Position numbers and translations under genes: made by a program | Assembly (NCBI RefSeq): GCF_003584015.1 | Contig: NZ_QXFM01000112.1 | Coordinates: forward strand, 1-64,000 | Reading direction: 5' to 3' | DNA: 64,000 nucleotides | Source of the DNA: Aurantiacibacter xanthus | GTDB taxonomy: Bacteria; Pseudomonadota; Alphaproteobacteria; Sphingomonadales; Sphingomonadaceae | Notes under the pieces: model-generated | What the model was told of the DNA's origin: nothing | What the model saw: only the letters and a program-made list of their open reading frames with translations | Databases searched by the model: none | Shown here: piece by piece, positions 1 through 53,985 of the stretch | Layout: every line of letters begins with the position of its first letter | Numbering within the stretch: the first letter of the stretch is position 1

Positions 1-624
1 GCTCGACCGGTCCCGTTCGAGGCCGACATTCAGGCCTTCGAACTGGTGGACGCGGCCTTTCCGCCGCCAACCTGCTCGACGCTGTTTGTCGGTTCCTCCT
101 CGATCCGGCTGTGGCGCAGTCTGGCCGACGATTTCTCCGACCGCCGGGTGATCAATCGCGGCTACGGCGGTTCGACCATCGCCGATACGGTCCGCTTCTT
201 TGACCGCATCGTCACGCCCTATGCCCCGCGCGCCATCGTGTTCTACGCGGGAGAGAACGATCTCGCCCAGGGCAGGAGCCCGCGTCAGGTGTTCCGCGAT
301 CTGGAGAACCTGCTCAAGCTGAAGCGCGAGCGCTTGGGCGATACCCCGATGTGGGTGATTTCACTCAAGCCCTCGCCATCGCGCTGGGCGCAGCGCGAAC
401 AGCAGATCGCCTTCAACACCATGGCGCGCGAGCTGGCGCTGACCGAAAACGATCTGGCCTATATCGACGTGGCGTCGCCGATGCTGACCCCTGCCGGTAC
501 GCCGAAGGACATCTACGGCCCCGACCGGCTGCACATGCGGGCATCGGGCTACCAAATCTGGACCGCGCTGGTGCGCGCGGCCTTGCAGGACGTGCCGCCG
601 CCCGCGCGGTGCCGGACACGATAG
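1..624 (+). CDS. SGNH/GDSL-family hydrolase (5' end outside window)
   Basis: The frame is open from base 1, so the start lies upstream of the window; GTG at 46 is only the first internal candidate. The SGNH hydrolase blocks are visible: GSSSIRLW near codon 31 (block I, nucleophile Ser), YAGENDL near codon 83 (block III Asn) and DRLHM near codon 176 (block V Asp/His dyad). The family are esterases, lipases or acetyl-hydrolases on small esters or acetylated sugars; the substrate cannot be read from the sequence. The visible part is nearly full length for the family (about 207 codons). It ends 62 bases before the next gene on the same strand. Confidence 0.85.
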   Translation, partial: ARPVPFEADIQAFELVDAAFPPPTCSTLFVGSSSIRLWRSLADDFSDRRVINRGYGGSTIADTVRFFDRIVTPYAPRAIVFYAGENDLAQGRSPRQVFRDLENLLKLKRERLGDTPMWVISLKPSPSRWAQREQQIAFNTMARELALTENDLAYIDVASPMLTPAGTPKDIYGPDRLHMRASGYQIWTALVRAALQDVPPPARCRTR

Positions 625-686
625 TCAGGAACCAGTGGCTGCGATCAGGGGTTTACCTCGCAAAGACCCCTAACAGGAGACATTCC

Positions 687-932
687 ATGATTGGCAAGAT
701 TATCGGCGGCATCGCAGGCGCCAAGATGGCGGAAAAGACCTCGAACATCGGCGGCACCGGCGGGGCGCTGCTCGGCGCGACGGCCGTGGCCGTGGTGCGC
801 CGCCTCTCGTTGCCGGCGCTGCTGGCCGTGGGCGCGGGCGGCTATGCCTACAAGAAGTATTCCGAGCGCAAGGCCAAGTCGCCGGCGGAACAGGCCAAGG
901 CCGACACCGGCGTGGCCTCCGCCGCCGTCTGA
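687..932 (+). CDS. Small Gly/Ala-rich membrane-associated protein, unknown function
   Basis: This 81-residue protein starts at an ATG preceded by AGGAGA with six-base spacing. Longer overlapping frames are rejected for lack of such a site. It opens with a glycine-rich stretch (MIGKIIGGIAGAKMAE), followed by a hydrophobic segment at about residues 24-55 that looks like one or two membrane helices. The tail is charged and Lys/Ala-rich (YKKYSERKAKSPAEQAKA). I do not recognise a named family. Small proteins of this layout are common in sphingomonads and usually remain hypothetical. Confidence 0.65.
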   Translation: MIGKIIGGIAGAKMAEKTSNIGGTGGALLGATAVAVVRRLSLPALLAVGAGGYAYKKYSERKAKSPAEQAKADTGVASAAV

Positions 933-951
933 GCTTGCGGATGGAGGAGGC

Positions 952-1836
952 TCAGGCCGGCCTTTCGGGGTCGAGCCCGGCGGCTTCCTCCACCACCTTG
1001 GCGATGGCGGTGAAATCCGCCGCGCCCCCCTCGCGCGCCAGTGTGCGTTCGAGATAGTCGGCGACCACCTGACCAAGCGGCAGCGGAACCTGCGCCGCCT
1101 CGGCTTCCTTCAGCAGCAGGCGCGTGTCCTTCAGGCTTAGCGCTGCCGCAAAGCCGAAGTCGAAAGTGCGCGGAAGGACCGATTTCGGCCATTTGTCGCG
1201 GGTGGCGGAATTGATCCCGGTCGACTGGTTGAGCACCTCGATCATTTTCGCGGGGTCCAGCCCGGCCTTGATCCCGAAAGCCATGCCCTCCGCCGTCACC
1301 CCGATGGCGACCGCGCCGAGCAGGTTGTTGACCAGTTTCATCGTCTGCCCGGCTCCGGGCGTTTCGCCCATGAAGGTCGGCTTGCCCAGCCGTTCGAGCA
1401 GCGGTTCAAGCATGGGGTAATGCTCAGCCGGGCCGCCTACCATCAGCGACAATGTGCCATCGTGCGCCTTGGCGATCCCGCCCGACACCGGCGCATCGAA
1501 GCTCGCGACGCCCCTCGGTGCCAGCAGCGCATCGAGTTCGACCGCGAGCTGCGGCCCCGAGGTCGACAGATCGCACAGGATCGCGGGGCTGCCGCCGCTG
1601 GCGATCTCGGCTACGGCATCGCGCACGATGGCCGGGGTGGGCAGACTGGTGAACACGATGTCGCACTGCGCGCCGAGCGCCTTGGCGCTGCCCGCCGCTT
1701 CCGCGCCCTTCTCCACCAGCGCGGCGACGGCCTCGGCGTCGATATCGTGGACCAGCAGGCTGTCCGCATGGCCGATCAGCCGCGCGGCCATGCCTGCGCC
1801 CATGCGGCCCAGTCCGAGAAATCCAACCTTGGTCAT
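952..1836 (-). CDS. NAD(P)-dependent 3-hydroxyisobutyrate-dehydrogenase-family oxidoreductase
   Basis: This 294-residue protein has the beta-hydroxyacid dehydrogenase layout. There is an N-terminal Rossmann motif (GFLGLGRMG, residues 5-13), the substrate motif DAPVSGG at 114-120, and the catalytic lysine K167 within MKLVNNLL. The family oxidises short beta-hydroxy acids to semialdehydes with NAD(P)+ in the cytosol; the exact substrate is unknown. Its ATG overlaps the stop of the upstream metallo-hydrolase as ATGA, so it is the third gene of a coupled P450-hydrolase-dehydrogenase operon. That context favours a catabolic job over a role in valine breakdown alone. No neighbouring mmsA is present. 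Confidence 0.85.
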   Translation of the reverse strand: MTKVGFLGLGRMGAGMAARLIGHADSLLVHDIDAEAVAALVEKGAEAAGSAKALGAQCDIVFTSLPTPAIVRDAVAEIASGGSPAILCDLSTSGPQLAVELDALLAPRGVASFDAPVSGGIAKAHDGTLSLMVGGPAEHYPMLEPLLERLGKPTFMGETPGAGQTMKLVNNLLGAVAIGVTAEGMAFGIKAGLDPAKMIEVLNQSTGINSATRDKWPKSVLPRTFDFGFAAALSLKDTRLLLKEAEAAQVPLPLGQVVADYLERTLAREGGAADFTAIAKVVEEAAGLDPERPA

Positions 1837-43138: not shown

Positions 43139-44473
43139 CTATTCGGGCGTCAGCGCGTGGCCTTCGAGTCGCGCGACCGCGTGCCGCACCACCTTGTCTA
43201 GCGCCTCTTCGGAGAAGAACCCGCCGGGGATCAGGCATTTTTCGACCAGCACGCGGCGGAAGGCGGCGAAGGTTTCTTCGTCGGGCGGGGTGCCTTCGGT
43301 CCAGAACCGGTCGATGCCATGCTGGAACGTGAGGTCGGCCATATCGTAGATCGCCTGGCCCAAGGCGATGACCGGTATGCCCATGTCGAGCGCGAATGTT
43401 CCGCTCGTACTGTTGATTGTCACCATACCCTTGGCGTGCTGGGCCACCGGGACGATGTCGCCGAACCCGAGATAGTCGACCCGCTCCTCGATACCGAGCG
43501 TTTCGGCCATCGAGCGCACTTCTTCGTGCCAGTCGACCACACCGTTGTCGAGCGGGTGTTCCTTCACCACCAGCCGCGTGCCCCGAGGCGCGTTTCTGGC
43601 GAACGAGCGCAGGACCAGCAGGATCGCGTCGTGCATGGTGGCAAAGGGCGAATGCAGGCGAATCTGCGCATCCGACGCCAGTTGCAGCGGGAAAAGATAG
43701 TAAGGCCTGTCTGACTTGAGCAACTGATGCATCAGTGCGGCGGCGTTCTCGCGCCGCTCTTTTCCGCGCAGCAGCTTGCGGGCCCAGCCGACGCCTTCGA
43801 TCAGCGGGTGCCAGGGCCGGTGATTTTCCCAATGCGGATAGTACCAGCGGGTGAACACGTCGGCGACGTTATAGGCTAGCCCTTCGAGTGCCCTGCGGGT
43901 GAACGAGGCTGGCACCTGCTTGTGCTGGGGAATTGGTGGCAGTTCGGCGGCGAGCTGGCGATACCAGGTCGGATCGCTGGGCAGCTCCGAATGGCCGTTT
44001 ACTCCCCCAAGCTCCAGCGTGACCCAGTCAGGCCGAATATAGCCTTCCTCGAACACGTGAACCGGCACGCCCAGTTCGCGGCAGATTGCCACGGCAGGGA
44101 CATGGTGCGCGCGACAGTCGCCGAACAGAACTACATCGGTAATGGCGTTATCGTGCACGATCGCGCGAAAGGCTGCCGGCCATTCCTTCAACGTGCCACG
44201 GTAATCGATTCCGCCCGGCAAACGCCAGAACAGCCGGTCGCCGCCGTTGAAATTGACCTTGAAGACGTTGTGCCCAGAATCGATAAGCCCTTGACCCAGA
44301 CGGCGAAACAGACGTCCCATCAGGCCTTGAAGCAACAGAACGTTGCGGGGGTGAGGGCCACCGTCAGGCGCGCTTCGCCCACCGGCGGAGATGCTCGCAA
44401 GCTTGTCATGCAGCATGCGATTGGCCCGCTCTTCCTGGGCTGAATTCAAATCGGGAAAACTTTCAAAACCCAC
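43139..44473 (-). CDS. kpsS: Capsule Kdo-transferase, KpsS family
   Basis: The protein carries VLLLQGLMGRLFRRLGQGL, NGGDRLFWRLPGG, VVLFGDCRAHHVPA and FEEGYIRPDWVTLE, then LVVKEHPLDNGVVDW and INSTSGTFALDMGIPV. This is the KpsS pattern of capsule Kdo-transferases, which place the first Kdo on a lipid acceptor. The frame is open to TTG 44539, but I prefer GTG 44473, which has GAGG nine bases upstream; ATG 44416 is another option. It is convergent with holA and divergent from the LtaS-like gene. Confidence 0.88.
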   Translation of the reverse strand: MGFESFPDLNSAQEERANRMLHDKLASISAGGRSAPDGGPHPRNVLLLQGLMGRLFRRLGQGLIDSGHNVFKVNFNGGDRLFWRLPGGIDYRGTLKEWPAAFRAIVHDNAITDVVLFGDCRAHHVPAVAICRELGVPVHVFEEGYIRPDWVTLELGGVNGHSELPSDPTWYRQLAAELPPIPQHKQVPASFTRRALEGLAYNVADVFTRWYYPHWENHRPWHPLIEGVGWARKLLRGKERRENAAALMHQLLKSDRPYYLFPLQLASDAQIRLHSPFATMHDAILLVLRSFARNAPRGTRLVVKEHPLDNGVVDWHEEVRSMAETLGIEERVDYLGFGDIVPVAQHAKGMVTINSTSGTFALDMGIPVIALGQAIYDMADLTFQHGIDRFWTEGTPPDEETFAAFRRVLVEKCLIPGGFFSEEALDKVVRHAVARLEGHALTPE

Positions 44474-44540
44474 AACGTCAAACCTCAATGCCCCCTCATA
44501 AGGAGGCCTAGAGGAAAAGCGTAAGAAAAATGAATCCAAC

Positions 44541-46085
44541 GTGGAAGAAATCCCCAGCGGAATAGCTCGTTACACGAGTGCGATCTCCGTGTGGGCTAGC
44601 CTTGAGACGGTTGTCCGGTTAACGCCTGCCGCGCATTTCATGGAATTCACTCTCCCCTTGTCGCTTGCCGTGATCGGCTCCCTGCTGGCCGATTGCCTTG
44701 CCCATCCCCGCCGGTCAGGTCTGCGGCAGGAGGCCGGTCTGTGGCTGACCGCGCTTTCGAGCATGGTGGCATTCGGTCTGTTCCTCGCCCTGAGTGGAGA
44801 CACCTTGCTGGCGGCCCTGACGGCTTTGGCGTTGCAAGTGCTGCTGGTGGTCTCGTCCAATGCCAAGCTGCGTATTCTGGGCGAGCCACTGCACTTTTCC
44901 GATCTGGCGCTGTTCTTCGCGGTATTTCAGCATCCGCAATTCTATTTCTCGGCCCTGTCGATCTGGCAGAAGATCGTTGGACTGGCCGTGCTGGCGTCGC
45001 TGATCGCGGCGTTTGTCTGGCGCTTCGATACCTCGGTGGCGATCCATCTGGGCGGTGCGACAATCGCTGTGATCGGGATCATGGCGATCGCACTCTCGCT
45101 GCGCCTGCCAGCATTCCGCAAGCTCGCCGCAAGGCCCGATGCCGAAGGCGATGTGGCAAAGCTGGGGCTGGTGCCGACCTTGCTGCTCTACTGGTTGCGG
45201 TGGCGGGGCACCCCGCCACAGACGCTGCGCTCGGCAGAGCCACATGCTGCGACAGTTGCGAACGAGGCAGAGATCGTCATCGCGATCCAGTGCGAGAGCT
45301 TTGCCGATCCGGTCGAGCTGTTCGGCGACAGGAAATATGCGCTGCCCGCGCTGGAGAGCGCCCGCTTGCAGGCGGCCCAATGGGGCAACCTGCTGGTCAG
45401 CGGCTTTGGTGCCTACACCATGCGCACCGAATATGGCGTGTTGTTCGGACGCGAGGAGGAGGCGCTGGGCTTCTGCCGTTACGATCCGTTCCTCACCGCC
45501 GCGCGCGAGGCCGAATGGGCGCTGCCGCACAGGCTCGGCACCGGGGCGTGGCGCAGCCTGTTCGTCCACCCGCACGACATGCGCTTCTACAATCGCCACG
45601 CGATCATGCCGGCGGCCGGCTTTGCCGAACTGGTGAGCGAGGATGCTTTCGCTCCGCCGCTTCCGGGCGAGGGCCGTTACGTCACCGACAAGGCCGTGGC
45701 CGACAAGATCCTGCAGCTGGCACAAGCTGCCGAGGAGCGCCGGTTCATCTATGCCGTCACGATCGAGAATCACGGTCCGTGGTCGGTCGACGGGGCGCTG
45801 GAAGACGACAGCCTGCTGAACCAGTATCTCCGCCGCGTTCAGGCGAGCGACGCGATGCTTGGCCAGTTGCTCGATGGACTGGCGGCCCTTCGCCGACCGG
45901 CGGTGCTGGCCTTCTTCGGCGACCACCGCCCGAGCATTCCGGGGCTCAGCCAGCCGGGCGGGCCTCGCCACACGCCCTATGTGATCCTGAAGCTGGACCG
46001 CAACGGTGATCTGGTCCCGGGCACCAATGCGCGCGAGGACATTACGCCCGCGCAATTGCATCGCGCCATTCTGGGCATGGTCTGA
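44541..46085 (+). CDS. LtaS-like membrane sulfatase-fold enzyme (phosphoglycerol-transferase type)
   Basis: An N-terminal part with about five membrane helices (residues 30-190) is followed by an alkaline-phosphatase-fold domain. Metal and nucleophile positions of LtaS-type enzymes are visible: E252 in IQCESF, T293 in AYTMRTE, and D461-H462 in FFGDHRPSIPG. Related enzymes move phosphoglycerol or phosphoethanolamine from lipids onto glycans. The start is uncertain: GTG 44541 is used here; ATG 44640 would still keep the helices, and would leave room for a promoter between this gene and kpsS. Its place beside kpsS suggests capsule modification or polymer synthesis. Confidence 0.82.
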   Translation: MEEIPSGIARYTSAISVWASLETVVRLTPAAHFMEFTLPLSLAVIGSLLADCLAHPRRSGLRQEAGLWLTALSSMVAFGLFLALSGDTLLAALTALALQVLLVVSSNAKLRILGEPLHFSDLALFFAVFQHPQFYFSALSIWQKIVGLAVLASLIAAFVWRFDTSVAIHLGGATIAVIGIMAIALSLRLPAFRKLAARPDAEGDVAKLGLVPTLLLYWLRWRGTPPQTLRSAEPHAATVANEAEIVIAIQCESFADPVELFGDRKYALPALESARLQAAQWGNLLVSGFGAYTMRTEYGVLFGREEEALGFCRYDPFLTAAREAEWALPHRLGTGAWRSLFVHPHDMRFYNRHAIMPAAGFAELVSEDAFAPPLPGEGRYVTDKAVADKILQLAQAAEERRFIYAVTIENHGPWSVDGALEDDSLLNQYLRRVQASDAMLGQLLDGLAALRRPAVLAFFGDHRPSIPGLSQPGGPRHTPYVILKLDRNGDLVPGTNAREDITPAQLHRAILGMV

Positions 46086-46886: not shown

Positions 46887-46962
46887 GTATTAACCTTGAA
46901 AAAGGGTTTTCGGCGCAAGTTCCTTGACAGCCAGTAGCCTTTTCTGTCCAGAAGAGATGATG

Positions 46963-47592
46963 ATGCCGACCTCCGACGATAACCCAAACCGGCTCGTTCT
47001 CTTTGAAAACCAGGCGGTTGAGAAGCTTACAGTAATCTCGCTTCGCTGGTTTGTCGTGGTTTGGTCCGTGCTCCTGCCGCTTATCGCCTGGGCCGGATGG
47101 GGGCGAGTGTCCGCTCTCGACGGGCTGGCGCTGGTGGGTCTTGGCCTGTTGGTATGGACGCTGTTCGAATATTGGGCACACCGCTACCTGTTCCACTGGG
47201 AAGCTTCGTGGAAGCCGGTGCAGCAGCTGGTTTTTCTGATTCACGGCAACCATCACGAACAACCGCGTGACCTTTTGCGCAACCTCATGCCGCCGGTCGT
47301 CAGTGTGCCCGTCGGGCTGATCGTGTGGGCCTTGTGCTTCGCGCTGGTCGGCCATGCCGGGACCTGGCTGTTTCTCGGGTTCATGAGCGGCTATGTCCTC
47401 TATGACCTGATCCATTATGCGTGCCATCAGTGGCCGATGCGCGGTCGGCTGGGCCGGATGCTCAAGCGCCATCATATGCGGCACCACTTCACCGACGAGA
47501 ACGGCAACTTTGCCATTACTGCGCTGTTCTGGGATCGCCTGTTCGCAACACGGGTCCACGGTGCTCGTCGGCAACAGGAAGCGGGCAAGTAG
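46963..47592 (+). CDS. Fatty-acid-hydroxylase/sterol-desaturase-family membrane protein
   Basis: The 209-residue protein has three tandem ATGs (46957, 46960, 46963); AGAAGAG is best spaced for the last. It has about four membrane helices and the di-iron histidine series of the family: EYWAHRYLFHW, HGNHHEQPRD, YDLIHYACHQWP and KRHHMRHHFTDEN. That order is like eukaryotic fatty-acid 2-hydroxylases (Scs7/FA2H). It could hydroxylate an acyl chain of a lipid anchor or a ceramide, which would fit sphingolipid-making bacteria; that role is inferred. Confidence 0.88.
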   Translation: MPTSDDNPNRLVLFENQAVEKLTVISLRWFVVVWSVLLPLIAWAGWGRVSALDGLALVGLGLLVWTLFEYWAHRYLFHWEASWKPVQQLVFLIHGNHHEQPRDLLRNLMPPVVSVPVGLIVWALCFALVGHAGTWLFLGFMSGYVLYDLIHYACHQWPMRGRLGRMLKRHHMRHHFTDENGNFAITALFWDRLFATRVHGARRQQEAGK

Positions 47593-47598
47593 CCTTTC

Positions 47599-48795
47599 CT
47601 ATTTGCGCGCGCAGTTCTCGATGAGCTGCACCGCAATCTGCATGTGCGCAGGCCAGTCCGGGGCGTGCCAGTCTTTCATTCGCGTCATCTGCGCCCGGTG
47701 CATCGGGCCGCGCTGCGCATGGTCGAGTATGGCGTCGCGCCAGCCCGGTCCATCGAGCGGGTCGCGGTAGTCGGGCGCATCGCCGCCGACCTCGCGATGG
47801 GCCGCGATGTCGCTGGCGATGACTGGGGTGCCGACCGACAGTGCCTCGGCAATCGGCATGCCGAAGCCTTCCGTGAACGACGGCATCACCAGAGCATTGG
47901 CCCCGCGCAGCCATCGCGCGAGATCGCCATCGCCGCAGCTGTTCACCTCCTCGACGAAGGGCTTTAGCGCCGGGCAGCGGTCGAGCAGGTCGAGGACCTG
48001 TTCGTTTTCCCAGCCGCGGCGGCCGATCACCACCAGGCGCGGAATTTCGGCGGCGGGCAGGCGCTCGGCCATGCTTCGCCACAGGTGCAGCAGCAACAGG
48101 TGGTTCTTGCGCGGCTCGATGGTGCCAAGACACAGCAGGTAGGGCCGCGCCTGCCGGTCATCGCGCGGAGCGGCCTCGGGGATGGCTTGTGTGCCCAGCA
48201 AGGCGGCCGCAATCGGCGGCGGCAGCAGCCCGCGTCCTTCGATCCAGCGCGCCAGCGACGCGCCGGTGGCAGCCGAATTGACGATCACCGCATCGGCCAG
48301 CTCGGCCACGGTTGCCATCCGCCGCTCGTGCAGTGCGGCGCCGCCGGGACGGGCATATTCGGGAAACTCGATCGGGATGAGGTCGTGGACCATGCACACG
48401 AAGCGGGCCTGTTCGCGCCCCAGTTTGCGGCGGACCTTGTCCGGGTGGTGGAGGTGGTGCGGCGAGACCTGCACCAGCACGTCAGCCGAGCCGACCCCGG
48501 CGTTGCGCGGCAACAACCGCGAGATCCACGGCGCGGCATCGGCCAGCGAGCGCTTGCCTTTCCGGCTTTCGCTGTTGGCCCAGCGCCGGTCCAGCTCGTC
48601 GAGGTAGGCGAGCGCCGCCGGGCGTGCAATCCGGCCGTAGATGCCCGAGGGATGAACAGCGCTGAACGCCAGCGCGTCGCCATAGGCCTCCAGCAGGCCG
48701 CGGGCATAGGCCATCTCCACCCGGTCGACGCCCGAAGGCGTGAAATGGCGGACGCGCGAGATCAGCCGCGAGATATCGAGCACTACCCTGGTCAT
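47599..48795 (-). CDS. GT4-family glycosyltransferase
   Basis: This 398-residue GT-B enzyme begins TRVVLDISRLISRVRHFTPSG and has FVCMVHDLIPIEFPEYA. The donor-side C-terminal half has LCLGTIEPRKNHLLLL and FTEGFGMPIAEALSVGTPVI, the EX7E-type nucleotide-sugar site. It is related to mannosyl- or rhamnosyltransferases of polysaccharide loci. Its ATG overlaps the kpsC stop by four bases, so it is coupled to Kdo-linker synthesis and may add the next sugar. It converges on the hydroxylase gene. Confidence 0.9.
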   Translation of the reverse strand: MTRVVLDISRLISRVRHFTPSGVDRVEMAYARGLLEAYGDALAFSAVHPSGIYGRIARPAALAYLDELDRRWANSESRKGKRSLADAAPWISRLLPRNAGVGSADVLVQVSPHHLHHPDKVRRKLGREQARFVCMVHDLIPIEFPEYARPGGAALHERRMATVAELADAVIVNSAATGASLARWIEGRGLLPPPIAAALLGTQAIPEAAPRDDRQARPYLLCLGTIEPRKNHLLLLHLWRSMAERLPAAEIPRLVVIGRRGWENEQVLDLLDRCPALKPFVEEVNSCGDGDLARWLRGANALVMPSFTEGFGMPIAEALSVGTPVIASDIAAHREVGGDAPDYRDPLDGPGWRDAILDHAQRGPMHRAQMTRMKDWHAPDWPAHMQIAVQLIENCARK

Positions 48796-50438
48796 GGCTG
48801 CGCGGCCTTAGCTTTGCGTTTCTGGAAACGCGAGACGATCCGGCCTTGCAGCCGCCGCAGCGGCTCTATCCAGCCCTGGCGATTGGGCATCGTACCTTCC
48901 GCCATGCGCCGGATCAGCACTTCGGGCGGGCAGGGCAGGCCGGTGACGGGGTCGAGATAGCGCGGGTAGAGCAGCAGCACGCCCGCCACCAGTTCGTCGA
49001 GCGTGAGCTGGCGTCCGCGCCGGTCGGGCACCGTGCCCAGATCGCGGGTCAGCCCCCAGCCGGCGAAGAACGGGGTGCCGTGGCAGGTCACCTCGCGCCC
49101 GCGCAGCAGCGCCTCGAAGCCGGAGAGCGAGGTCAGCACATGCAGCGCGTCGACCTCGTCGAGCAGATCGGCCATGCTGCCTTCGCGCACGATGCGGTCG
49201 GCATAGTGGAGCGCGTCTTCGTCGGCCACCGCGCCGTTGCGGTGCCCGGCATCGACATCGGGGTGCGGACGCCACCAGATTTCCGCCTCGGGCTCGCGGG
49301 CGCGGGCGCGTTTGAGCAGTTCGAGATTGGAGGCCAGCCCGCCGCCGCCCGCCAGCACCGACATGTCGTCCTCGACCTGACCGGGCACGAGCACCACGCG
49401 GCGCGTCCGTTTCAGGCTTTCGTCAGACTTGCCGCGTGCGCCGCTGCTGCGGGCATATTTGCTGATCCCGGCGGCAACGATGTTTTTGCGCAGCTGGCGG
49501 GCGCGCTCGATCAGCGCCGGGGCGAAGTCGGTGACCGCGAGGATCGTTTCGAGATCGCTTGGCGCAGAGGGATCGAAATGGATGCCCTGCCGGTCGACCA
49601 CTACAGAAGAGGGAGGCACCAGATTGCTGCCCAGACCGGCGGAACGAACGAAGCCGTCTTCCACCCGCACCAGCGCCACACCCCTTTCGCGGGCCTGTGC
49701 GATCAGCCTTGGCGAGATGCGCGAGGGCCAGACCGCCACCGCGCCGCCGTGTCGCTGCGCATGGGCGAGAGCACTGGTGCCGCTGTGGGCGATGCGCAGG
49801 CGCGTGCCGGGCACCCAGAGAAAGCGGCGGATTTCGGCGCGCTTCCACCAGCTCATGCCGCAGGCGGCGACGATGGTCTGGCCGCTTGTGCCGCGATTGC
49901 CGTCGATCACGCGCCGCCATTCCGCCAGCAGGGCGATGGCCTCGTGCGGGGTGAGCCAGTTGCCGGAGAACGGATCGCGCATGGGCTGGGCCAGCGCCGT
50001 CAGCGCCGTGGCCTTCAACGTGGCTTCGTCGTCCGCTGGGGCACCATAGGGGCCTGGCGAGAGGACTTGCACCGCGACCCCGAGGATGGCGGCGATGGCG
50101 ATCCACTCGTCATCGCCATGGGCGACCAGCCGCTTCGCTTGCGGCAGGATCGACCAGGGGTCGCAGTCGTGCGGGCAATCGAGGACGTCGCTCGCGCCAT
50201 AGGCTGTCTGCAAGTGCGGGAGTTCCGCCTTGTTGCGCGGGCGGAGCACCGTTTCGGCAAGCCGCTCGGGCGCGCATGGTGCGGCCCAGAAGGCTCCCCC
50301 CACGCGCGCTGTGCGCATGGCTTCGAGCAGGGCGTCGCTGTCAGCAGGCGCGAGATCCGGGGCGGGGTTCGCGGGCGCGCCCGCATGCTGCGCCCATGGG
50401 AACGGCGGTGCGCGCAGGAGAGGGGGGGCGTGGCTCAA
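48792..50438 (-). CDS. kpsC: Capsule Kdo-transferase KpsC with shortened N-terminal module
   Basis: At 548 residues it is shorter than classical KpsC (about 670, with two Kdo-transferase modules). The C-terminal module looks complete: ACGMSWWKRAEIRRFLW, RVEDGFVRSAGLGSNLVPP, VLVPGQVEDDMS, WWRPHPDVDAGHR and GFEALLRGREVTCHG. The first 170 residues hold only the tail of the other module (DPFSGNWLTPHEAIALLAEW). It would extend the Kdo linker on a lipid. It overlaps the phosphatase gene upstream and the glycosyltransferase gene downstream. Confidence 0.88.
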   Translation of the reverse strand: MSHAPPLLRAPPFPWAQHAGAPANPAPDLAPADSDALLEAMRTARVGGAFWAAPCAPERLAETVLRPRNKAELPHLQTAYGASDVLDCPHDCDPWSILPQAKRLVAHGDDEWIAIAAILGVAVQVLSPGPYGAPADDEATLKATALTALAQPMRDPFSGNWLTPHEAIALLAEWRRVIDGNRGTSGQTIVAACGMSWWKRAEIRRFLWVPGTRLRIAHSGTSALAHAQRHGGAVAVWPSRISPRLIAQARERGVALVRVEDGFVRSAGLGSNLVPPSSVVVDRQGIHFDPSAPSDLETILAVTDFAPALIERARQLRKNIVAAGISKYARSSGARGKSDESLKRTRRVVLVPGQVEDDMSVLAGGGGLASNLELLKRARAREPEAEIWWRPHPDVDAGHRNGAVADEDALHYADRIVREGSMADLLDEVDALHVLTSLSGFEALLRGREVTCHGTPFFAGWGLTRDLGTVPDRRGRQLTLDELVAGVLLLYPRYLDPVTGLPCPPEVLIRRMAEGTMPNRQGWIEPLRRLQGRIVSRFQKRKAKAAQP

Positions 50439-51046
50439 GGCCGCTCGCCCCAGGCTTGCAGCACCAACTGCTGCTGTCCATTGCGGGCAACGATGCCGTA
50501 TCCGCCGGTCGGCAGCTTGAGCGATGGCAGCGCCTTTGCGGCCTTATGCAGATGCGGGTCGGCCAGCAGGGCAAAGCGGGCCGCGCCATTGCTGGTGACG
50601 AGCAGCGTCGGTTGGTCGGAAGCAGGTTCGGCGGTAAACAGGTCCCGCCATGCCGCGATGCGCGCTTCGGGTTCTGCCACCCAGCCCGGAGGAACCTCCG
50701 CGCCGTGCTCCCATGCATTAAGCGCCTCCTTCCCGATCCGGGCGACAACCGCTTCCTCCGGCAAGTTCTCGTCGGGCCCGTGATCGACCTCGCGCAGAAA
50801 ATCGGCGGTCTCGACCTGTGGGGCACTTGGCATATGCGCGAGAATTGCCTCGGCGGTCTGCCGTGTGCGCAGCAAGGGGGACACCAGCATCCGCCCGAAG
50901 CGCCAGCCGCGCGCGGCAAAGCAGGCTCCAAGCGCGCGCGCCTGCTCCTTGCCCTTGGCGGTCAGGGGCAGGTCGGTGCGGGCGCCGATGCGGCGCGGCT
51001 GCTCGTCGGCTTCGAAGGTGTTGCCATGGCGGACGATAATGAACAT
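50435..51046 (-). CDS. Histidine-phosphatase-family protein with atypical second site
   Basis: The 203-residue protein starts at ATG 51044-51046 (MFIIVRHGNTF), with the RHG nucleophile motif at residues 6-8, SPLLRTRQTAE and an acidic E86 (FLREVDHG). The usual second catalytic histidine (VSHG) is replaced by Asn153 in VTSNGAARFAL. Its stop overlaps the kpsC start, and kdsB is upstream. It therefore sits within the Kdo pathway operon, where a Kdo-8-phosphate phosphatase (KdsC) is otherwise absent. A replacement for KdsC is one reading; the missing His makes the activity uncertain. Confidence 0.85.
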   Translation of the reverse strand: MFIIVRHGNTFEADEQPRRIGARTDLPLTAKGKEQARALGACFAARGWRFGRMLVSPLLRTRQTAEAILAHMPSAPQVETADFLREVDHGPDENLPEEAVVARIGKEALNAWEHGAEVPPGWVAEPEARIAAWRDLFTAEPASDQPTLLVTSNGAARFALLADPHLHKAAKALPSLKLPTGGYGIVARNGQQQLVLQAWGERP

Positions 51047-51094
51047 CGCCCCGGCTTTACGGCTCAGACTTTCGCGCGGCAATGGCTGCACGCG

Positions 51095-51904
51095 TTATGC
51101 CGGAAAGGGGTCGCCCAGTCGCGCAATCGCCTGTTCGGCGAGCGCGAGATCCTCGGGCGTGTCGATCCCGGACAAGGCGTGAGCGGGCATGGGCACGGGC
51201 ACCGTGGCGATGGTCCAGCCGCTTTCCATGAAGCGCAGCTGCTCAAGGCTTTCGAGCGTTTCGTAAGTGCCTTTCGCTGCGCCCACGAACCAGTCGAGCG
51301 CTGCCATCGTATAGGCATAAAGCCCGAGGTGCTGCCACACCGGCGAAAGCGGCTGTGCGCGCAGTTTTTGCTCGTCGCGCAGGGCGGGCAGGATCGCCTT
51401 GGAGAACCACAGCGCCTTGCCCTCGCCATCGCGCAGGCAGGTCGTGCCGCTGAACGGTGCGGTGCGCTTGTGTTCGCGCAGACGGTCAAGCCGGTCCCAG
51501 TCGAGCTGATAAACCGGGGTTGCCACCTGCGCCGTGCCCTCGCGCAGGCGCGTCAGCAGACCCGCAACGATCTCGCCCGAGATAAACGGCGCGTCGCCTT
51601 GCAGGCAGATCACCCGCCCGGGCAGGTGATCCTGCTGGAGCGCGGCGGCATGGGTTCTGGCGCTGCCCGAATCGAGCGCAGGATCGGTAAGGGCAACCCT
51701 TGCCCCCAGCGCGCGGGCGTGGTCGGCGATGCGTTCGTCGTCGGTGGCTACGACCAGCTCGCAATCGCCCGCGACGCGTGCCGCAAGGTTGCCGTTCGCG
51801 AGCACCCGTTCGAGCATGGTGCGCCCGGCGATCTTGCGCAGCGGTTTGCCCGGAAGGCGCGTCGAAGCATAGCGCGCCGGGATGACGATGAGGTCGGGGG
51901 CCAT
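51095..51904 (-). CDS. kdsB: CMP-Kdo synthetase
   Basis: This 269-residue protein starts MAPDLIVIPARYASTRLPGK (KdsB nucleotide site) and has LVVATDDERI, ICLQGDAPFISGEIV (QGD(E/A)P motif) and the hydrophobic end with SGIDTPEDLALAE. It couples Kdo with CTP to CMP-Kdo, the donor for KpsS and KpsC. It is 17 bases downstream of kdsD on the same strand and 48 bases before the phosphatase start. Confidence 0.95.
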   Translation of the reverse strand: MAPDLIVIPARYASTRLPGKPLRKIAGRTMLERVLANGNLAARVAGDCELVVATDDERIADHARALGARVALTDPALDSGSARTHAAALQQDHLPGRVICLQGDAPFISGEIVAGLLTRLREGTAQVATPVYQLDWDRLDRLREHKRTAPFSGTTCLRDGEGKALWFSKAILPALRDEQKLRAQPLSPVWQHLGLYAYTMAALDWFVGAAKGTYETLESLEQLRFMESGWTIATVPVPMPAHALSGIDTPEDLALAEQAIARLGDPFPA

Positions 51905-51921
51905 CAGGGCCAGCCCGAGGC

Positions 51922-52908
51922 TTACAGTGTGCCCAGACGCACGAGGTCGTGCATGTGGACGATGCCGACCAGCTTGTGGCCTTCGGTCACGAACAGCACC
52001 GAAACCGCGTTGTCGTTCATCAGCGTCAGCGCTTCGGTTGCCAGCATCGTCGGCTCTGCCGCGACTGGCCGGGGCGACATGTGCCGGTCGATCGGCTCGT
52101 CGAGATCGGACAGCGCGATCGCGCGGCGCAGGTCGCCATCGGTGAAGGCGCCGACAAGGTGGTCGGCCCGGTCGACGACGGCGGTGCAGCCATAGCGCTT
52201 GCGGCTCATCTCGATCGTCGCTTCGCGCAAGGTGGCATGGACCGGTACGCAGGGCAGCGCCATTCCGGTGCCCATCACATCGCTAAGAGTCGCCAGCTGG
52301 GCACCGAGGCGGCCGCCGGGATGGAACAGCCGGAAGTTGCTGGGGGAGAACCCGTGCGTCTCGATCAGGGCCACGGCCAGCGCATCGCCCAGCGCCATTT
52401 GCACGGTGGTGGAGGAGGTGGGGGCCAGTTCATTGGGGCAGGCTTCGCGCACCTGCGGCAGGCACAGGCAGATATCGGCGGCTTCGCCGGCCATGCCGTC
52501 GCGGTTGGAGGTGGCGACGACCAGCGGAACCCGGTTGAGCCCGCAATAGGTGAAAATATCGCTCAGTTCCGGAGTGTTGCCCGACCAGGTCACGGCGAAC
52601 ACCACATCCTCGGTGGAGATCGCTCCCAGATCGCCATGGCTGGCCTCGCCGGGATGGAGGAAAAAGGCGGGCGTTCCGGTTGAGCAGAAGGTGGCGGCAA
52701 TCTTGCGCGCGATATGCCCGCTCTTGCCCATGCCGGTGACGATCACGCGGCCCTTGTTTCCGGCAAACAGCTTGACGGCCTTCACGAAATTGGCCCCGAG
52801 GTCGGACTGCTCGAGAGAGTCCCTCAGCTCGTGGAGGCCCGCAATTTCGATATCGAGCGTATTGATCGCAGCGCTGATTTCCTGCGGGCGGGAGAGTTCT
52901 GTTTTCAT
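51922..52908 (-). CDS. kdsD: Arabinose-5-phosphate isomerase
   Basis: The 328-residue protein starts at ATG 52906-52908 (MKTELSRPQEIS); the open frame to 53076 runs through the promoter region. Residues 40-175 form the SIS sugar isomerase domain with VTGMGKSGHIARKIAATF, HPGEASHGDLG and TWSGNTPELSD. Two CBS repeats follow (about 210-328), with ATLREATIEMS and TDGDLRRAI. It interconverts ribulose-5-phosphate and arabinose-5-phosphate, the first Kdo step; capsule versions are also named KpsF. It is first in the kdsD-kdsB-phosphatase-kpsC-GT operon and divergent from kdsA. Confidence 0.94.
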   Translation of the reverse strand: MKTELSRPQEISAAINTLDIEIAGLHELRDSLEQSDLGANFVKAVKLFAGNKGRVIVTGMGKSGHIARKIAATFCSTGTPAFFLHPGEASHGDLGAISTEDVVFAVTWSGNTPELSDIFTYCGLNRVPLVVATSNRDGMAGEAADICLCLPQVREACPNELAPTSSTTVQMALGDALAVALIETHGFSPSNFRLFHPGGRLGAQLATLSDVMGTGMALPCVPVHATLREATIEMSRKRYGCTAVVDRADHLVGAFTDGDLRRAIALSDLDEPIDRHMSPRPVAAEPTMLATEALTLMNDNAVSVLFVTEGHKLVGIVHMHDLVRLGTL

Positions 52909-53124
52909 ATGCTGATCTGCCACACAACTATTGTTCAAACCCTGCAAGAGGGTCTGCACCGATCTCCCCAGCATCAGCACATCTGTGCTTGATCGGGCGG
53001 GAGGGGCCAGTATGTCAAGCGGTGTGTGCAAATGCGAAAACACTTTGTTCATACTTTGGCCATGAACAGTCAGCATTTGCTAAATGAGTGAAATGCGTAC
53101 TTTCCAGGGATTGGCACTGATATA
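52909..53124. promoter_or_regulatory. Divergent promoter region between kdsD and kdsA
   Basis: This 216-base gap is markedly richer in A and T than its neighbours and must drive both Kdo operons. It holds a short hairpin, AGCACA-tc-TGTGCT, at 52976-52989. TTGGCC with AT-rich sequence 17 bases on could serve kdsA. Neither ORF has a strong ribosome site; kdsA starts at ATAATG with no purine run at the usual distance. Confidence 0.45.
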
Positions 53125-53985
53125 ATGCAACTGTGCGGCCATCCGCTCGAACCGGGCTCTCCGCTGTTTGTGATCGCAGGCCCCTGCGTGATTGAGAGCG
53201 AGGCCCATAGCCTTGCCGTGGCCGAACGGCTGGCCGAGATTGCCCGGCGACAAGACGTGCTGCTGATCTTCAAAAGCTCGTTCGACAAGGCGAACCGCAG
53301 CTCGGGTGCATCCTACCGCGGCCCCGGCATCGACGAGGGATTGCGTATCCTTGAGAAGGTGCGGGCCGAAACCGGCCTGCCCGTGCTGACCGACGTCCAC
53401 GAAGCCAGCCAGGCGGCGGTGGTCGCGCAGGTGGTCGACGTGTTGCAGACCCCGGCCTTCCTTGCCCGGCAGACCGATTTCATCGCTGCCGTTGCCGCCA
53501 CCGGCAAGCCGGTGAACATCAAAAAGGCCCAGTTCATGGCGCCCGCCGACATGGCCAACGTCGTCGCCAAGGCGCGCGATGCGGCGAGCGCGGCGGGGCA
53601 CGATCCCGACAACTTCCTGCTGTGCGAGCGCGGCACGTCGTTCGGCTACAACACGCTGGTGTCGGACATGCGGGGGCTGGCGATCATGGCCCGCACCGGT
53701 TGCCCGGTGGTGTTCGATGCGACGCATTCGGTGCAGCAACCGGGCGGCCTCGGCACCAGTTCGGGCGGGCAGAGCGAGTTCGTGCCGCTGCTGGCCCGTG
53801 CGGCGGTGGCCGTGGGTGTGGCCGGGGTGTTCATGGAGACACACCCCGATCCGGCCAAGGCGCTGTCGGATGGTCCCAATGCCTTGCCGCTCGACCGGTT
53901 CGAGGCTTTGATCGCGCAGCTCAAGGCGCTCGACGCGGTGGTCAAGGCCGCGCCGGGCACCGATGCCGAGCTGTCTGGCCGCTGA
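53125..53985 (+). CDS. kdsA: Kdo-8-phosphate synthase, metal-dependent type
   Basis: This 286-residue enzyme joins arabinose-5-phosphate and phosphoenolpyruvate. Motifs: [50 protein letters not shown] and [13 protein letters not shown]21 in GPC is the metal ligand that marks the metallo-KDO8PS class (as in Aquifex); the E. coli class has Asn there. It is divergent from kdsD and is followed two bases after its stop by a PhyH-family gene. Confidence 0.95.

Follow-up and report, generated by a model that had tools for sequence, protein, structure and literature searches.

A histidine phosphatase gene within a cluster for Kdo synthesis

A 64,000-nucleotide stretch of Aurantiacibacter xanthus DNA (contig NZ_QXFM01000112.1, positions 1 to 64,000 of the forward strand; hereafter, the window) carries a cluster of genes related to 3-deoxy-D-manno-octulosonic acid (Kdo), in which a gene for a histidine phosphatase (HP) lies between kdsB and a kpsC-like gene. 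HP is considered here as a candidate for the dephosphorylation of Kdo-8-phosphate. The genes concerned, with the profile scores on which each assignment is based, are the following:

53125-53985, plus strand: kdsA, Kdo-8-phosphate synthase, divergent from the other genes of the cluster (TIGR01362, 400.4 bits; cut-off 314)
51922-53076, minus strand: kdsD, KpsF/GutQ-type arabinose-5-phosphate isomerase (TIGR00393, 261.9 bits; cut-off 203.7)
51095-51904, minus strand: kdsB, CMP-Kdo synthetase of the HP-linked KdsB group (NF003952, 217.8 bits; cut-off 193; and trees)
50435-51046, minus strand: HP, 203 amino acids, candidate Kdo-8-phosphate phosphatase (PF00300, 90.9 bits)
48792-50438, minus strand: kpsC-like capsule gene, 548 amino acids, TTG start (PF05159, 160 bits in one stretch)

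The original prediction, made from the sequence alone, had read kdsD, kdsA, kdsB and a kpsC gene as present together, and the profile searches bear this out, with PF05159 as the sole basis of the kpsC-like assignment and with the window KdsB scoring above the cut-off of NF003952 and below that of TIGR00466. The place of HP between kdsB and kpsC was also confirmed. The coupling overlap that had been claimed was found at kpsC only, where the sequence TTGA is shared by the HP stop and the kpsC start; on the kdsB side there is a gap of 48 nt to the ATG start of HP, or of 3 nt if a possible alternative GTG at 51091 is used. The annotated start of kdsD is probably too far upstream, as similarity to NF008141 begins only at residue 69 (profile position 15), leaving some 55 extra N-terminal codons; a start further in would give a longer divergent region between kdsD and kdsA. 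The kpsC-like protein of the window has a single PF05159 stretch, and that of a KdsC-bearing locus from a sister family (L179) has 687 amino acids and three such stretches.

HP resembles branch-1 histidine phosphatases

The HP score against PF00300 was well above the gathering score of 21.7 bits for this branch-1 histidine phosphatase profile, and no NCBIfam family reached its cut-off. The second-best NCBIfam match was the CobC alpha-ribazole phosphatase (TIGR03162, 42.3 bits, below the cut-off of 162.9), and the KdsC model TIGR01670 gave no match at an E value of 0.001. An AlphaFold2 model of HP (mean pLDDT 97.3) was compared with solved structures by VIA-align, giving 50 listed entries with Z scores of about 18-22, all of which were histidine phosphatases or phosphoglycerate mutases or were named as hydrolases of this type. 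The closest folds were those of branch-1 phosphatases, including GpgP, TIGAR, PspA, the riboflavin histidine-family phosphatase (HFP) of Aquifex and CobC, with Z of about 20-21. The RHG motif (R6, H7 and G8), the second Arg of the phosphate pocket (R60) and E86 were invariant in HP alignments of 45 and 56 rows, and R19, D25 and R157 were also among the invariant positions. By profile and modelled fold, HP is thus homologous to branch 1 of the histidine phosphatase superfamily, although its catalytic tetrad is incomplete, as discussed below.

kdsB is the constant partner of HP

The first relatives of HP, found in a plasmid search, came from Novosphingobium PP1Y, Novosphingobium US6-1 and Hirschia baltica. 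A scan of genome contigs then gave 236 relatives, from which the best 80 loci were kept, making 83 with the three plasmid loci. The 236 were picked by sequence patterns that included the motifs RHGNTF and REIDHGPD, so these two motifs are over-favoured among the 80 loci; the Asn motif discussed below was not among the patterns. The loci comprised 60 from Sphingomonadales, 13 from Hyphomonadales, 6 from Hyphomicrobiales and 4 unassigned, the plasmid loci among these last.

In all 83 loci, kdsB was immediately upstream of HP (the automatic count was 82, with a split kdsB match in L076), and chance placement is therefore not at issue. The distance from the kdsB stop to the aligned HP start was -1 to 70 nt in 82 loci and 180 nt in the remaining one, and no kdsB-HP fusion was found in any of the 83. 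A kpsC gene followed HP within 200 bp in 49 of the 60 Sphingomonadales loci, and none was found in the Hyphomonadales or Hyphomicrobiales loci. The order in Hyphomicrobiales was kdsD-kdsB-HP-kdsA, with kdsA at most 300 bp downstream of HP in 6/6 and kdsD upstream in 5/6 (the contig of the sixth is short and begins within kdsB). As these loci hold kdsA and kdsD without kpsC, they link HP to Kdo synthesis and not to capsule export.

Thirty further HP loci, in which one genome appears twice, were taken from samples of the order and of the class (both described below), and 28 had kdsB immediately upstream at 8-79 nt. Within the class sample alone, this was the case for 20 of the 22 HP genomes viewed, from a total of 23 (G220 is not included); the 20 are the window, ten of L120-L130 (not L122) and nine of L190-L199 (not the short contig L197). 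Overall, HP and kdsB were neighbours in each of the three orders named above and, in the class sample, across 16 family codes, and kdsB is the constant partner of HP.

A tree of 127 KdsB proteins required two changes of the label for HP linkage, compared with about 40 on average after shuffling, and an earlier tree of 97 rows required one. The HP-linked KdsB group contained all 52 HP rows and one of the 75 unlinked rows (L205). The rows were not a random sample: L131-L160 are the 30 best-scoring genomes of a kdsB search, in which the HP profile found no match, and for L201-L230 the 30 best were taken from 49 genomes picked for low kdsB scores or as fillers. The pairing of kdsB and HP looks old and rarely broken. 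HP and KdsB distances were correlated (Mantel r 0.87, 49 pairs), a value that vertical descent alone would also yield.

KdsC was not found in the genome or in most of the class sample

KdsC/YrbI (TIGR01670) is a haloacid dehalogenase (HAD) protein to which the same reaction is ascribed as is proposed here for HP. The source genome is a 4.38-Mb draft of 99.86% completeness, and a search at E values up to 10 gave no KdsC above the TIGR01670 cut-off of 106.95 bits. The sole match, of 26.3 bits, was in a 905-amino-acid frame whose product Pfam calls an E1-E2 ATPase. The original prediction had named a normal kdsC elsewhere as its refutation, and the genome-wide search turned up none.

The class sample consisted of 241 Alphaproteobacteria (completeness filter 95; KdsC threshold E ≤1e-12). 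KdsA was found in 218 of them and KdsC in 8, all KdsA-positive, leaving 210 of the 218 KdsA-positive genomes without KdsC. Since its absence is the norm in the sampled Alphaproteobacteria, a missing KdsC is a weak argument by itself, and it was dropped as the main argument for replacement. The hole in the pathway is, moreover, already in print for Rickettsia and divergent bacteria, in passages of PMC5615194 that propose a different, possibly non-specific phosphatase and note that E. coli can do without KdsC.

Distribution gives independent support. The order sample comprised 297 genomes, in which HP was detected with profile A2 at E ≤1e-15; HP profile searches scored the top 10-13 candidates per genome, so that weak HPs may be missed, and the order, class and named-relative sets may share species. 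KdsA was present in 95 of the 297 genomes and HP in 24, all among those 95 and none among the 202 without KdsA (Fisher p 1.4e-13, uncorrected for kinship). Likewise, all 23 HP genomes of the class sample were among its 218 KdsA-positive genomes, and none was one of the 8 that have KdsC. In the other two sets, the search for KdsC covered 80 of the 95 KdsA-positive order genomes and, for the 80 relative loci, 50 of their genomes. KdsC was never found above cut-off together with HP (0/24 order, 0/23 class and 0/50 named-relative genomes). Conversely, one family of the same order (f5) had KdsC in 25/25 genomes and HP in 0/25. By coordinates, its KdsC gene is within 100 bp of kdsA in 24 of the 25, the two genes being on separate contigs in the remaining one, and both loci viewed (L179 and L180) show the order kdsA-kdsC-kdsB-kpsC, a cluster similar to that of the window.

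Six matches below the KdsC cut-off, of 95-102 bits, were found in the 50 named-relative genomes, all others being at most 33 bits. Those of L101/L118, L116 and L117 were rejected as normal kdsC because they are the C-terminal part of PseF/NeuA-like cytidylyltransferases, as was a 99-bit match in an HP genome of the order sample (G403). Those of Henriciella (L113, L114 and L115), 95-100% identical to each other, were rejected because they lie about 2 kb from a NeuB/PseI-type synthase. All seven matches are of the nonulosonate type. The fusions join a phosphatase domain to a CMP-sugar synthetase, which is the same logic as that of HP with kdsB.

Proposed role of HP and alternative explanations

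We consider it probable that HP is a dedicated Kdo-8-phosphate phosphatase, non-orthologous to KdsC, in part of the class. This is supported by its conserved pairing with kdsB, its co-occurrence with KdsA, its mutual exclusion with KdsC and a sister family that has KdsC beside kdsA. The original prediction of a replacement for KdsC thus stands in part, on these grounds and not on the missing KdsC that it had put forward, and it has to accommodate the loss of the second catalytic His. The replacement is plausible and better grounded than by the missing KdsC alone, but unproven; the putative activity on Kdo-8-phosphate is based on gene context, co-occurrence and precedent.

We infer the substrate of HP, the role of N153 and the order of catalysis. 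In this scheme, HP would work between KdsA and KdsB. Kdo-8-phosphate would enter a pocket formed by R6, H7, R60 and E86, perhaps assisted by the invariant R19, D25 and R157, and H7 would accept the phosphate to give a phospho-H7 intermediate, from which water would release it. Asn153 would grip the phosphate by hydrogen bonds and not by charge, an adaptation that would have arisen within a lineage already tied to the kds genes. The freed Kdo would pass to KdsB for conversion to CMP-Kdo, and in the window organism it would serve a capsule linker of the KpsC/KpsS type.

Several findings weigh against this role. Where a second catalytic His would be expected (the counterpart of Aquifex HFP H149), the window HP has N153, so that it keeps three of the four catalytic residues by which the superfamily is said to be characterised. 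Neither enzyme seems to be needed everywhere: in the window's family, all 31 genomes tested that have KdsA and no HP lacked KdsC too, so these cells apparently manage the step with something else, and HP, reaching 23 of the 241 class genomes, would close the class-wide gap only in part. Kdo itself may also be lacking where KdsC is absent, as in Granulibacter, for which the relevant passages of PMC8036547 note that KdsC is missing and that no Kdo was detected. In the few HP genomes that have KdsC-like enzymes of the nonulosonate type, Kdo-8-phosphate might be a substrate of these as well. Regarding the pairing itself, the HPs of L122 and L197 had no kdsB in the fetched stretch, a KdsB of the HP group (L205) had no HP in its 3.5-kb locus, and neither kdsA nor kdsD was found near HP-kdsB in the several kb viewed of ten class loci (L190-L196, L198-L200). 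The pairing could reflect a capsule or regulatory link, and shared kinship inflates every count.

The first two of these points support another explanation, namely that HP became catalytically dead on losing its second His and is now a regulator or partner of KdsB, the phosphatase being a non-specific enzyme encoded elsewhere. Of 111 HP rows, in which one gene was entered twice, 109 have Asn at this position, one has Gln (L192) and one has His (L196); the 31 genomes with neither HP nor KdsC would have to use an enzyme encoded elsewhere, and the non-specific phosphatase proposed in PMC5615194, together with the dispensability of KdsC in E. coli mentioned there, would fit the same explanation. 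On the other hand, a pseudoenzyme need not retain R6, H7, R60 and E86, which are invariant in both alignments. Two HPs in kds neighbourhoods, L196 and L018 (the motif of the latter read by eye), keep the canonical His, which suggests that the change to Asn arose within the kds-linked lineage, and that this lineage was catalytic while tied to the kds genes. As a weak control, seven unlinked HPs of the order gave an AHG motif in four (L008, L010, L011 and L014) and no clear motif by regular expression in three. We regard a dead HP as unlikely.

Action of HP on another nearby phosphate, such as a capsule lipid acceptor, the CMP released by Kdo transferases or a by-product inhibitory to KdsB, is quite improbable. 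It would agree with the proximity of kpsC in most Sphingomonadales loci and its overlap with HP in the window, and the solved relatives of the fold act on several small phosphates; yet the constant partner is kdsB, no kpsC was found at any locus from Hyphomonadales (13) or Hyphomicrobiales (6), and KdsC is what lies between kdsA and kdsB at both loci viewed of the sister family. Finally, a general housekeeping phosphatase placed accidentally in the operon would explain why no NCBIfam family, and so no specific function, is assigned to HP, but this very improbable explanation is already largely refuted by the conserved pairing (83/83) and by the confinement of HP to KdsA-positive genomes in both samples.

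Comparison with known phosphatases

HP and KdsC have unrelated folds. KdsC acts through a metal-dependent HAD aspartate, whereas the chemistry of histidine phosphatases proceeds through a metal-free phosphohistidine. To our knowledge, no histidine phosphatase has been described in Kdo synthesis, and HP would be the first. The open-licence literature searched, including the pertinent passages of PMC5615194, PMC8036547, PMC3402364 and PMC4758666, gave no statement of such a role. A Leptospira paper that names both 'histidine phosphatase' and 'kdsB' was rejected as a precedent, as in the passage concerned the phosphatase is among vitamin B12 genes.

Precedents for histidine phosphatases are found in parts of PMC12051542 and PMC3866925. 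According to the former, the riboflavin phosphatase that had been missing in Aquifex proved to be a histidine phosphatase, the enzymes reported earlier for this step being HAD proteins, and an IMP-type enzyme also dephosphorylated the riboflavin intermediate. This HFP is the nearest proven parallel to the role proposed for HP. The Aquifex aeolicus structure (PDB 9mmh) has an HP-like fold (Z 20.7, root mean square deviation 2.8 over 190 residues), but the two proteins are 19% identical, their pathways differ, and R8, H9, R58 and H149 of the Aquifex enzyme are canonical whereas HP has Asn153. The small-molecule phosphatases GpgP (Rv2419c; 4qih, 4pz9) and PspA (4ij5) also share the fold (Z 20.5-21.2), but have 20-22% identity to HP and other substrates, and HP scored 26.6 bits against the PspA model NF045917, with a cut-off of 350. 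CobC (6e4b) has a similar fold as well; HP is below its cut-off, and the genomic partner of HP is kdsB.

Bacteria that lack KdsC present a gap at the enzyme for Kdo formation, as described in the relevant part of PMC5615194, and HP is a small, clustered candidate for filling it. If the proposed role is correct, Kdo synthesis would be the second pathway, after riboflavin, with a histidine phosphatase at a step elsewhere assigned to HAD enzymes, and a conserved catalytic His could be exchanged.

Other phosphatases beside kds genes

Phosphatase genes of other kinds were found at kds loci from which HP is absent, and these are leads. Two genomes lacking both HP and KdsC, G510 and G392, have a TIGR01459 HAD-IIA hydrolase gene between kdsA and kdsB (loci L161, 7886-8803, and L162, 7815-8615, both on the minus strand), which is another candidate for the Kdo-8-phosphate step; G510 shares its genus with the window, as does no other KdsA-positive genome listed. 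At 3/3 loci of family f22 (L201-L203, about 600-1489, plus strand), the start of kdsB abuts the end of a CysQ-family gene (TIGR01331, 268-276 bits; cut-off 229). On a plasmid of Mesorhizobium sp. AR07 (L018, 5992-6645, plus strand), kdsA and kdsD flank a gene on the other strand for a remote HP whose second His looks canonical. In the remaining HP-less loci viewed, no phosphatase was recognised between kds genes, although no systematic scan was made.

It is tentatively possible, although we would not yet favour it, that Alphaproteobacteria filled the KdsC step anew on several occasions, using unrelated phosphatases encoded by the kds genes, among them the Asn-variant HP, the TIGR01459 HAD-IIA hydrolase and the CysQ-family protein, with true KdsC in a few lineages; the HP form would then function with an Asn where the second catalytic His is otherwise found.

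Two other loci carry further genes next to kdsA or between kds genes. In L177 (6335-7126, plus strand), an inositol-monophosphatase-type protein adjoins kdsA convergently (best match TIGR02067, 133 bits, below cut-off). In L178 (8269-9579, minus strand), the expected place of kdsB, between kdsA and kdsD, is taken by the gene for a 436-amino-acid protein whose N-terminus is cytidylyltransferase-like and whose C-terminus is aldolase/RraA-like.

Flanking capsule genes of the window

Two further genes lie on the kpsC side of the cluster:

47599-48795, minus strand: group 1 glycosyltransferase (PF00534 and PF13692)
43139-44539, minus strand: KpsS-like capsule gene (PF05159, 267.3 bits; NF050054, 257 bits, below the cut-off of 600)

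The group 1 glycosyltransferase gene follows kpsC in the window and in many sphingomonad relatives. Between it and the kpsS-like gene, on the opposite strand, are genes for a PF00884 sulfatase-fold protein (44541-46085, plus strand) and a PF04116 fatty acid hydroxylase (46924-47592, plus strand).

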